From positions 1 to 46,056 of the forward strand of contig NZ_JACJQJ010000068.1 of NCBI RefSeq assembly GCF_014696615.1: DNA of 46,056 nucleotides. The letters run 5' to 3'. Within the stretch, counting starts at the first letter, position 1. Every line of letters begins with the position of its first letter. Made by a program: the position numbers and the translations under genes. The stretch comes from Nostoc linckia FACHB-104 (lineage in GTDB: Bacteria > Cyanobacteriota > Cyanobacteriia > Cyanobacteriales > Nostocaceae). Below are positions 6,549 through 9,750 of this stretch, in pieces. The notes beneath the pieces were generated by a model. It saw only the letters and a list, made by a program, of their open reading frames with translations, had not been told where the DNA came from and ran no database searches.

Positions 6549-6574
6549 ATTCACAAGGGTTTCACCTAGATTTA

Positions 6575-6740
6575 ACAAGCTAACGAATTTGTTTAACAAG
6601 GTCGCGACTTTCTTTAACAAGCTAACGATTTTGTTTAACAAGCTAACGAGTTTCTTTAACAAGACTACGACTTTGTTTAACAAGGTCGCGAGTTTGGTTA
6701 ACAAGACTACGACTTTGGTTAACAAAGCAACGAGTTTCAG
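6575..6740. repeat. 21-bp tandem repeat array (about 8 units)
   Basis: About eight degenerate 21-bp units follow each other, each of the form TTTAACAAGNTNNCGANTTT plus one base; the variable middle alternates among CTAACGA, GTCGCGA and ACTACGA. The minus strand stays open through the array and would encode a strict heptad pattern with LL at each start, but it begins with TTG, has no ribosome site and is better seen as repeat DNA. Related arrays are known from spacers of Nostoc-type genomes. Confidence 0.8.
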
Positions 6741-6860: not shown

Positions 6861-6998
6861 CAGTGCTTAAAATCACAACCTACCACTTTTCAAATAACCT
6901 CTCAGCGGGAGAGTTTAATCAACCTCACTGGATTAAGGCTGGACTCTTTTTTGGTACACCCTATGAATTTCCATTCACCACTTCTTTCAATATACAAG

Positions 6999-7099
6999 GG
7001 TGTGTTATGCCGTTAGCTTTTAGCGTTCCCGCAGGGTAGGCTAACGCACCTTTTATTATGGAAAATATTTCGGTGCGTTGCGCTGCGCGACAACACACC
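6999..7099. repeat. MITE-like element with GGTGTGTT ends
   Basis: GGTGTGTT (6999-7006) and AACACACC (7092-7099) bracket 101 bases that contain two further hairpins, including GTTAGC/GCTAAC and GTGCG/CGCGC-type pairs. No coding capacity. Between this and the caspase gene (7100-7232) I see nothing distinct. Confidence 0.55.
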
Positions 7100-7232
7100 T
7101 TACCTTTTTAATTACGAATTATTGGTAAATCACTCATCTAAAAACCTAAAAAAATTTGAGCGCGCCAAGCGCTAGGCATAAGGGAAAAGGAAAAAGCGCA
7201 GAGTGCTAAAGGGTATAAAGAGTAAAGTGCTA

Positions 7233-9347
7233 TTAAGTCCTGCGCCAAACCATCACAACCCGAAAACCCACGCTGAGGTCCCTAAGGTCACGTGCGAGCC
7301 AGTTGCGATTCGCTGAACGGCAATACCCGGGATTGCGGCCCCACGAACCACCACGCAGCAGTTTTTTTTGATTATCATTCTCAACTAACCAAGCAGTGCC
7401 GTCCGCTGGTGCATTATTATAATTTTCGTGCCACTCATCCTGACACCATTCCCATACATTACCATGCATATCAAATAAACCAAAGCGATTGGCAGGAAAT
7501 TGTCCCACATCGGTTGTTTGCTTACGATATCCACCCTTGGGAGCAGAACCGTATGTATAATTTCCATCGTAATTGGCTAAATCAGTTGTAATGGTTTCGC
7601 CAAAATAAAACGGAGTAGTAGTTCCCGCCCGACAAGCATATTCCCATTCTGCTTCACTGGGTAAGCGATAGATTGTCTGTGTCTTGTTCGAGAGTCGAGC
7701 GCAAAATTCAACCGCATTATCCCAAGAAACACGTTCTACAGGTCGATTAGCACCTTTAAAATTAGATGGGTCGGGATTTAAATCAATATTTACCTTATCA
7801 AGAGCAGCAACAGCTTGCCATTGACTTTGAGTCACAGGAAATTTCCCTATGAAAAAGGGTTGAATGGTAACGTTATGCTGTGGACTTTCTGAGTCATATC
7901 CTCCTTCCTCATTCTCTGGTGAACCCATGAGAAATTTACCACCAGGAATTGCCACCATTTCCAAAACTACGCCATTACCCAGATTTTCTGTAAAAAACGC
8001 AGTCGTGGACGCACTGAGTTTAATTTCATAGTTTATTTTTTCCTTTCCAAACCATCCTGTGCTTTTTACCACCGTTAAGGTAGCAGTATTGAACCCAAAA
8101 GTCTGGGTTTGAATATCTGGGGGAGATTTAGGCTCAGAAACAGGTGGAGACCATAGTATTTCTTGTTGTCGTTGAAGTTCTGCCCTTTCTCGTTGTTGGC
8201 GTAATCTTTCGGCTTGCTGTTGTTGAAGTTCTGCTGTTTGTTTTTCTTGGCGTAATCGTTCGGCTTCTTTTGGTGCAAGCACTTGTTGTTTAATTACAGC
8301 TATATCTTCATCCCGAAGATTCAAGATATTTTGTAAGCGTTGCAATCCATTCTGATCTCTTTGACTAATGGGGTATTGCTGTTGTACTATCTGCGATAAA
8401 GCTTGCTCATAGCGTTGCAATTTCTCTTGGCGTTTGCGATAGGGTTCCAGAACCTCAAACTCAATTGTCTCAGCCTCACCTACCGATAATCTCAAATTAT
8501 TACGCAACTCATCTGAATAAAAGCGATTGCCAATTGAAATATCTCCTTCATCTTCAAGGGCAATCTTATCAAATTCCTTACGGTATTTCAGCTTAGGGTC
8601 ATCCTTAGGCGACTTTGCCAGCAAAATCTTATGCCCTTCCTCAACTGGATAGAACTTCGGAGTCATTGCTGGTGAGGCTTCTTGAACTTTTGTACTTGCA
8701 TACTCATGCAGCTCATCGATGGAAATATAACCATCTGTATCTTTATCAGCTGCACCTGTTTCAATACCTTCTACTAAATAACGGGTATAAATTGAGAGTT
8801 CTGAGCCTTCTTGCTCAAAGGAATACTGGGTAGAAGTAGAAGAAGTGAGAATTGCCCGACCCTTACCACCTAGCTGCTCTTGTACATTTACATTACCATC
8901 ATCTTTGACAGTCATCCCTTGGGCGATCGCACCACTAAAACAACAATCTAAAATGATGACTTGTCTTTGAGATCTGCTACGACTGATACTTTCATGAACA
9001 AAACTGGCTGTAACTGCGGATGCACGAATTAAATCTCCTTTTGCAGTTTTGCGTGTGGTACGTGTTGCTAAATAAAGTTTGCCTGTGTCATCCTTAATTC
9101 CATGACCAGAGAAGAAGAAAACTACCAAATCATCCTTTTGACGATCCACAAACAACTTCTCTATTGCTTCTTCCATTTTCTGGCGTTCAGGATTTGCCAA
9201 TACAGTAATATTTTCCTCAGCAAAGTTACCCATTTCTGGGTTTACTAACACTCGCTTAACCGCCTCGATATCGTTGACAGCAGCAGGTAGGGGATTTAAA
9301 CCTGGCTCATATTCACTAATCCCTATCAGCAGTGCTACCTTCACCAT
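7233..9347 (-). CDS. Caspase-like protease with EF-hand and SUMF/FGE domain
   Basis: A 704-residue fusion. Residues 1-245 are a peptidase C14 (caspase/orthocaspase) domain: opening VALLIGISEY, H82 in FFFSGHG, and the cysteine pair C135-C136 in ILDCCFSG, C136 being the likely nucleophile. Residues 201-212 (DKDTDGYISIDE) form a textbook EF-hand loop. Residues 255-400 are charged and helical, ending in a Q/E/R-rich coiled coil. Residues 455-700 are a sulfatase-modifying-factor/FGE-type C-lectin fold: MVAIPGGKFLMGS, RLPSEAEWEYACRAG, FDMHGNVWEWCQDEWH, LRGGSW, SVGFRVV. Only one cysteine (C676) remains where true formylglycine-generating enzymes have a pair, so it is probably a ligand-binding domain. 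Its C-terminus has the codon signature of a retroelement variable region. The start overlaps the upstream EACC1-like gene by 32 bases. It is probably a conflict or cell-death effector; that role is inferred. Confidence 0.9.
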   Translation of the reverse strand: MVKVALLIGISEYEPGLNPLPAAVNDIEAVKRVLVNPEMGNFAEENITVLANPERQKMEEAIEKLFVDRQKDDLVVFFFSGHGIKDDTGKLYLATRTTRKTAKGDLIRASAVTASFVHESISRSRSQRQVIILDCCFSGAIAQGMTVKDDGNVNVQEQLGGKGRAILTSSTSTQYSFEQEGSELSIYTRYLVEGIETGAADKDTDGYISIDELHEYASTKVQEASPAMTPKFYPVEEGHKILLAKSPKDDPKLKYRKEFDKIALEDEGDISIGNRFYSDELRNNLRLSVGEAETIEFEVLEPYRKRQEKLQRYEQALSQIVQQQYPISQRDQNGLQRLQNILNLRDEDIAVIKQQVLAPKEAERLRQEKQTAELQQQQAERLRQQRERAELQRQQEILWSPPVSEPKSPPDIQTQTFGFNTATLTVVKSTGWFGKEKINYEIKLSASTTAFFTENLGNGVVLEMVAIPGGKFLMGSPENEEGGYDSESPQHNVTIQPFFIGKFPVTQSQWQAVAALDKVNIDLNPDPSNFKGANRPVERVSWDNAVEFCARLSNKTQTIYRLPSEAEWEYACRAGTTTPFYFGETITTDLANYDGNYTYGSAPKGGYRKQTTDVGQFPANRFGLFDMHGNVWEWCQDEWHENYNNAPADGTAWLVENDNQKKLLRGGSWGRNPGYCRSANRNWLARDLRDLSVGFRVVMVWRRT
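7260..7350 (-). other. Candidate diversity-generating retroelement variable region
   Basis: Codons 668-696 of the caspase fusion. Nearly every residue departing from the family pattern N/R is explained by changes at adenines of AAC, AAT or AGG codons: GGC, CGC, GGG, TAT, TGG, CTC, CTT, GAC, CTC and AGC. The invariant framework (GGSW, NP, CRSANRN, RD, VGFRVV) uses codons left unchanged. This is how adenine mutagenesis of a template repeat looks in FGE-type targets. No template repeat or reverse transcriptase is in the window. Confidence 0.6.
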
Positions 9348-9750
9348 CTTTGCTGTCTTGCGCCTTATTGGTACTATTCAAAAAATCCTGTGCTTTTTGG
9401 AAAGCAAATTCAAACTCTTCCCGACTGCTGGCTTCAAGGTTGAGTTCTCTACCATCAGTACCTTTGACTACCAGTTTAATGGGTTTGTTGCCGAAGCGAT
9501 CCGTCAGGAATTTAAACAAACCCTTGATATTAGCCGGATTAATTTCTAAATTTAACAAATTCCACAAAAAGCCCCCGAAAGCTTTTGAGCCTTTGGGCGC
9601 GTTTTCTTCAGGTACTAAAGCGGCTTCTTCTACGCCATCTACTTCTCTTAGCTGCGGGAGTAGGTTTTGCACTTCTGCTTGCAAATCTTCGTCATCTAAA
9701 TCCAGCCCAGCCAGAGAAATAGTCACCTGTACGTTAGATATCGTTGTCAT
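9316..9750 (-). CDS. EACC1-like effector-associated protein
   Basis: A 144-residue acidic soluble protein. The layout is an N-terminal strand (VQVTISLAGLDLDDEDL), a helix (QAEVQNLLPQLREV), a strand with Glu/Ala-rich turn, a Gly-rich linker (PKGSKAFGGFLWNLL), a helix (IKGLFKFLTDRFG), then PIKLVVKGTDGRELNLEA and a C-terminal helix. This matches my memory of EACC1, effector-associated constant component 1, a small protein coded beside caspase, trypsin and other effectors in bacterial conflict systems. The stop lies 32 bases inside the caspase gene, in a different frame, so translation is probably coupled. Role by association only; no enzyme motif is seen. The acidic C-terminal tail (DSKDGEGSTADRD) is low-complexity. 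Confidence 0.7.
   Translation of the reverse strand: MTTISNVQVTISLAGLDLDDEDLQAEVQNLLPQLREVDGVEEAALVPEENAPKGSKAFGGFLWNLLNLEINPANIKGLFKFLTDRFGNKPIKLVVKGTDGRELNLEASSREEFEFAFQKAQDFLNSTNKAQDSKDGEGSTADRD

Follow-up and report, generated by a model that had tools for sequence, protein, structure and literature searches.

Diversity-generating retroelements (DGRs) write a variable region (VR) by error-prone reverse transcription of the RNA of a template repeat (TR), followed by retrohoming. Passages of Vallota-Eastman et al. 2020 (PMC7517822) describe cyanobacterial DGR variable proteins with orthocaspase-like and CLec domains, and report for all3226 of Nostoc PCC 7120 a remnant of TR-VR homology with no reverse transcriptase (RT) nearby. 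Degenerate DGR loci of Thiohalocapsa PB-PSB1, in which RT or TR is missing and MITE-like repeats are found instead, are described in parts of Dore et al. 2024 (PMC10907252). The gene analyzed here lies in a 46,056-nucleotide stretch of DNA from Nostoc linckia FACHB-104 (the whole stretch is called the window). It shares with the published variable proteins the domain architecture and a VR at the 3′ end of the CLec domain, and with the Thiohalocapsa loci the loss of RT and TR with a MITE-like repeat in place. Since caspase-CLec targets and degraded loci with MITE-like replacements are both present in these published passages, the locus is a further case of a known type. However, it differs from the cases in the cited part of PMC7517822 in that an intact cassette and a deletion scar occupy the same site in sister species, and in that the cognate TR is absent from the searched genome. 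In Thiohalocapsa PB-PSB1, other DGRs may act in trans, according to the same passages of PMC10907252, whereas the genome studied here yielded no cognate template.

The 704-aa product of the target gene (Table 1) consists of a caspase domain (aa 3-225, PF00656) and a C-terminal FGE-sulfatase domain (aa 463-698, PF03781), both over the Pfam cut-off, and its translation ends in ...LLRGGSWGRNPGYCRSANRNWLARDLRDLSVGFRVVMVWRRT. This translation agrees with an earlier note, made from the letters alone, that had described an invariant framework with interspersed variable codons at the C-terminus; the VR (codons 663-698) is the last conserved block of the FGE domain and lies at the C-terminus of this C-lectin-type domain. 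The same note had argued for a VR from codons that can be reached from AAC, AAT or AGG by changes of adenine. Such codons are indeed present, but they are weak as an argument, since NNY or NGG codons of this kind make up 383 of the 704 in the gene. The caspase also matches NF047832, 'caspase, EACC1-associated type' (176.9 bits against a cut-off of 140). In this caspase type, in its small upstream overlapping gene and in its variable C-terminal domain, the locus resembles the EACC1-caspase two-gene conflict system as presented in passages of Kaur et al. 2020 (PMC7159879); however, that system is placed there mainly in actinobacteria, and the upstream 144-aa protein here has no Pfam or NCBIfam match. 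In a protein search of eight genomes of the genus, the window's own genome (G000) included, a full-length orthologue of the 704-aa protein was found in G002, at 91% identity. The FGE/C-lectin-type fold of the solved Treponema denticola variable protein (PDB 2y3c) aligns with aa 557-697, so that the VR can be aligned with the C-terminal part of that protein, but the similarity is modest (E 8e-21) and the Treponema match has no caspase domain. A structure prediction of the FGE domain from nine sequences had a mean pLDDT of 52.5, with most of the VR below 50, and was not used. Based on the domains and on proposals in passages of PMC10907252 and PMC7159879, the protein may act as a ligand sensor that drives the caspase. 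A second FGE loop upstream of the VR (~7545-7595, minus strand) has 10 residues more in G002 and 11 fewer in G003.

Table 1. Features of the locus and copies of the structured RNA. Positions without a prefix are those of the window.
Feature	Position	Strand	Evidence
Caspase + FGE-sulfatase/C-lectin-type gene, 704 aa	7233..9347	-	Pfam PF00656, PF03781 over cut-off; translation
Small gene, 144 aa, overlaps start of target	9316..9750	-	144-aa ORF at same place in G003
Variable region, 108 bases compared with G003 TR	7254..7361	-	Adenine-restricted differences; 7260-7350 inside
avd stub, 20 bases	7118..7137	-	Identical to start of G003 avd (ATG + next codons), then departs from avd
Dispersed repeat between avd stub and template flank	6986..7117	.	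BLAST pieces, 94% and 84% identity
Fossil of TR 3′ flank (structured RNA)	6891..7016	-	Covariance model R1, 44.3 bits
Structured RNA copy	L087:2222-2386	-	
Structured RNA copy, C4 locus	L023:7788-7945	+	
RNA directly after VR-like FGE gene end, no RT nearby	G000 C37:9002-9160 (L214:2503-2661)		
RNA directly after VR-like FGE gene end, no RT nearby	G001 C1:567786-567945 (L215)		
RNA directly after VR-like FGE gene end, no RT nearby	G003 C1:4735497-4735600 (L216)		

A template inferred from the window and G002 was used as a query, and its best match was found in G003, directly behind a DGR-type RT. G003 carries an intact DGR at the same chromosomal site, with caspase-FGE target, avd, RT and TR all on one strand (Avd: NF033474, 141.2 bits); the cassette stands between the same neighbours as the window gene, and the flanking pieces are 87-95% identical. 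The TR of this cassette is close to the template that the earlier note had imagined from AAC, AAT and AGG codons. Over the 108 aligned bases, the window VR differs from the G003 TR at 16 of 27 adenines and hardly elsewhere, at 2 of 81 other bases (Fisher p=3e-10). At one of these 27 adenines the TR has TCA and all five VRs have TCG; this position may not belong to the rewritten tract, and with it set aside the window has 15/26 changed. Of the adenine changes in the window, seven are to G, five to T and four to C, which excludes one-way deamination. The corresponding counts against the same TR are 14/27 adenines and 0/81 others for the adjacent VR of G003, 17/27 and 2/81 for G002, 16/27 and 3/81 for G001 (3.076 Mb), and 17/27 and 5/81 for G006 (C188); the rows 'G006C188TR?' and 'G001_3.0756TR?' are neighbouring VRs found again and were left out. 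Compared with one another in all ten pairings, the five VRs differ at 14-19 of the 27 TR adenines and at 2-7 of the 81 other bases. Variation concentrated at adenines, as the earlier note had expected, is thus seen between the species of the window and G002, which differ at 16/27 TR-adenine sites and 2/81 others. By codon position (1/2/3), differences between these two number 11/13/35 in the 200 codons of the FGE part outside the VR and 10/7/1 in the 36 codons of the VR; third positions dominate the former and are nearly unchanged in the latter.

The framework GGSW..CRSA..GFR is also found in FGE genes with no adenine excess, which would fit ordinary divergence of an FGE domain that had never been a DGR target. 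However, no bias of the VR kind was observed in eight kinase-FGE-type genes compared with the G003 TR (7-9/27 adenines and 14-22/81 others, p 0.4-1), the type being domain-tested for the C102 gene and assigned by similarity for the other seven. The 28 pairs among these controls differ at 0-2 of the 27 TR adenines and 1-17 of the 81 other bases, and in several pairs TR adenines differ less often than the rest (p 0.02-0.04), which is the reverse of what the VRs show. No adenine bias is seen in the remainder of the FGE part either, whether the reference is G003 (22/172 adenines vs 53/392 others, p=0.89) or G002 (16/179 vs 37/418, p=1). Together with the adenine restriction against the G003 TR, these two sets of controls rule out ordinary divergence; the DGR scar behind the gene also speaks against it, and we give it a negligible chance. 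We conclude that 7254-7361 is very probably a true variable region of a DGR, in a target gene that has since been orphaned, as the earlier note had proposed for most of this stretch. Two other FGE genes showed a weaker adenine excess, at 3.313 Mb in G001 (15/27 vs 16/81, p=0.001) and on C117 in G005 (15/27 vs 21/81, p=0.009); these may be VRs of other templates.

No DGR-type RT and Avd stand beside the target in the window genome, where the 20-base avd stub is all that remains. Copies related to the dispersed repeat that separates this stub from the template flank are found both inside and behind the intact G003 cassette, and its GGTGTGTT/AACACACC ends suggest, in our reading, a 'MITE-like' element. 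Positions 6907-6985 match the sequence just behind the G003 TR (BLAST, 79 bp, 89.9% identical), and in the fossil to which they belong many pairs are broken in the 5′ strand of helix 1. As judged from these traces, the cognate core evidently sat directly behind the gene and has since been deleted in this genome. A retroelement located elsewhere, as first supposed, was not borne out; the scar at 6891-7137 places the deleted cognate core next door.

The same scar is found in G002, in which no RT match was obtained at E<=1e-5, and the avd stub is common to the orthologous site of G000, G002, G004 and G007. G007 (C1:5998500-6004500, L217) keeps the first ~74 target bases, the avd stub and the TR flank, and G004 (C127:36000-39800, L235) keeps a target fragment (~aa 372-530) and the stub. 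In G001, G005 and G006 the matches to the neighbour genes end ~235, 99 and 113 bases apart, respectively, indicating that the insertion is absent. One site is therefore seen in four states: intact (G003); core lost and sensor kept (G000, G002); sensor decayed (G004, G007); and no insertion (G001, G005, G006). A caspase-FGE-type target followed by a broken TR is found elsewhere in G001 (3.076 Mb) and G006 (C188), two genomes in which no DGR-type RT was detected. A tree of the sister species built from ribBA and the amidase gives poor support for the branching order of the five close species and so does not tell how many deletion events took place. Behind the amidase gene, a tandem array of 21-base units occupies 6571-6738, and similar arrays are found at the same site in G002 and G007.

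The draft assembly of G000 (9.39 Mb, 181 contigs) contains three RVT_1 matches, one of them in a DGR on contig C4 (L023:1925-7945). This DGR has the parts that diversification of the window VR in trans would call for, namely Avd (NF033474, 123.2 bits, cut-off 80), then RT, then an AAC-rich TR with the full 3′ RNA, and trans activity is reported for Thiohalocapsa in the cited passages of PMC10907252. However, a retrohomed VR would carry the non-adenine bases of its template, and the window VR departs from the C4 TR at 22 of its 71 non-adenine positions; this rules out C4 as the writer, and we hold action in trans from this contig to be highly improbable. The copy with A at the variant positions that had been expected elsewhere in the genome was not found: a search of the G000 draft for a cognate TR had no match apart from the VR itself, C102 and the C4 TR, which is non-cognate. 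On this draft of 181 contigs, present-day diversification of the VR in this strain looks unlikely. The C4 locus is a mirror image of the window locus, a DGR without a VR that matches its TR at <=3 mismatches; at that threshold and with adenines masked, the TR matched nothing in the assembly except itself. The seven FGE domains of G000 have 20-38 non-adenine mismatches to the C4 TR in an ungapped comparison, a count inflated in the two C37 domains by an indel. The C4 DGR adjoins trypsin-iSTAND, AAA and VWA/CoxE-type genes. The C4 and G003 RTs, whose nearest named sequences (81-82% identity) are from Nostoc sp. CHAB 5844, CHAB 5715 and Amazonocrinis, are classed as DGR-type by their place beside Avd and TR rather than by a DGR-specific RT model, and in NCBIfam the C4 RT scores best, below cut-off, with group II intron RTs.

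The window and G002 have the scar in common and carry different VRs. Therefore, either one or both of the VRs were altered later than the loss of the core, through recombination or in trans, or it was the scar that passed from one species to another. Divergence between the window and G002 steps from 1.8% to 10% near codon 360 (~8260 of the window), close to the end of a caspase module common to many paralogues, where their similarity ends. The step indicates separate histories for the two parts of the gene, and a modular exchange of the FGE part is likely. The present VR allele may thus have reached the window or G002 after core loss by recombination with a DGR-bearing gene. In addition to the step, the poorly supported branching of the five sister species is consistent with this history, as are third positions that differ less in the VR (1/36) than in the rest of the domain (35/200, p=0.008). 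However, no donor allele was identified, and the site flanks of the window and G002 differ by ~4-10%; homogenisation may instead have affected the caspase half. We regard such recombination as a real possibility, if short of probable. Alternatively, a cognate DGR with a G003-type TR could have acted from elsewhere after the local core was lost, or could still act from an unassembled piece, as the common scar and the different, adenine-restricted VRs of the window and G002 would allow. Yet beyond the C4 DGR and an RNA copy on C37, no G003-type TR, RT or intact 3′ RNA was found in G000 or G002, and we consider this alternative unlikely.

Cyanobacterial DGRs have a conserved structured RNA behind the TR, with a consensus of 29 pairs, 18 of which have changes on both sides among 40 aligned loci. 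The alignment comprises 38 loci chosen by hand from 57, together with G003 and C4; the loci left out were 12 from planctomycetes, delta-proteobacteria and the like, and seven others. In it, 97.1% of cells pair, compared with 87.8% in shuffles and 28-49% when slid, although the slide control is biased in favour of the structure, which was derived from the same 40 loci. Of 80 DGR RT loci (L114-L193), 63 gave one match each to a covariance model (E<=0.01), 61 of them on the RT strand; 38 of the 80 had been used in building the model. Across the eight genomes, the model found a full copy after each of the two DGR RTs and two more after FGE genes that lack an RT in the vicinity (G001 567786-567945 and G000 C37), as well as weaker relics, including that of the window at 44.3 bits. 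Where the RNA directly follows a VR-like FGE gene end (Table 1), recombination between VR and TR may have removed avd and RT and joined the TR flank to the target. An Rfam search of the window and the G003 locus gave no match at gathering scores, and no description of a cyanobacterial RNA 3′ of the TR was found in literature searches or in passages of PMC12875486, PMC8867640 and PMC8144416. Passages of PMC12875486 describe, for the DGR of a Bordetella phage, a structured spacer that lies behind the TR and recruits RT-Avd; the cyanobacterial RNA may be its counterpart and is a possible RT-Avd recruiting or priming RNA.

These observations provide a model for the history of the gene. We propose that the TR RNA would have been reverse-transcribed by RT-Avd with errors at adenines, and that the cDNA would have overwritten the VR in which the caspase-FGE gene ends, thereby randomising ligand-site residues of the C-lectin fold, with the caspase part as the putative output. 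After deletion of the core, the VR of this strain would have been inherited as a fixed allele, with ordinary mutation and recombination between alleles as the only sources of change from then on. What the sequences display of this series is the adenine-restricted relation to a TR that still lies beside the gene in the sister species, and the core scar here.

A DGR target can thus be recognised with neither RT nor TR surviving nearby, a case that RT-first searches would miss, and the structured RNA serves as a marker for finding DGR relics. The site offers a natural experiment on the fate of a hypervariable, immune-type sensor once its mutator is lost. We tentatively suggest, with more doubt than confidence, that this clade discards the writing machinery and keeps the written sensor, whose VR allele turns over afterwards by recombination or through a passing trans-acting DGR. 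If so, binding sites made by DGRs would be a shared, exchangeable pool of alleles and not the private output of a local mutator.
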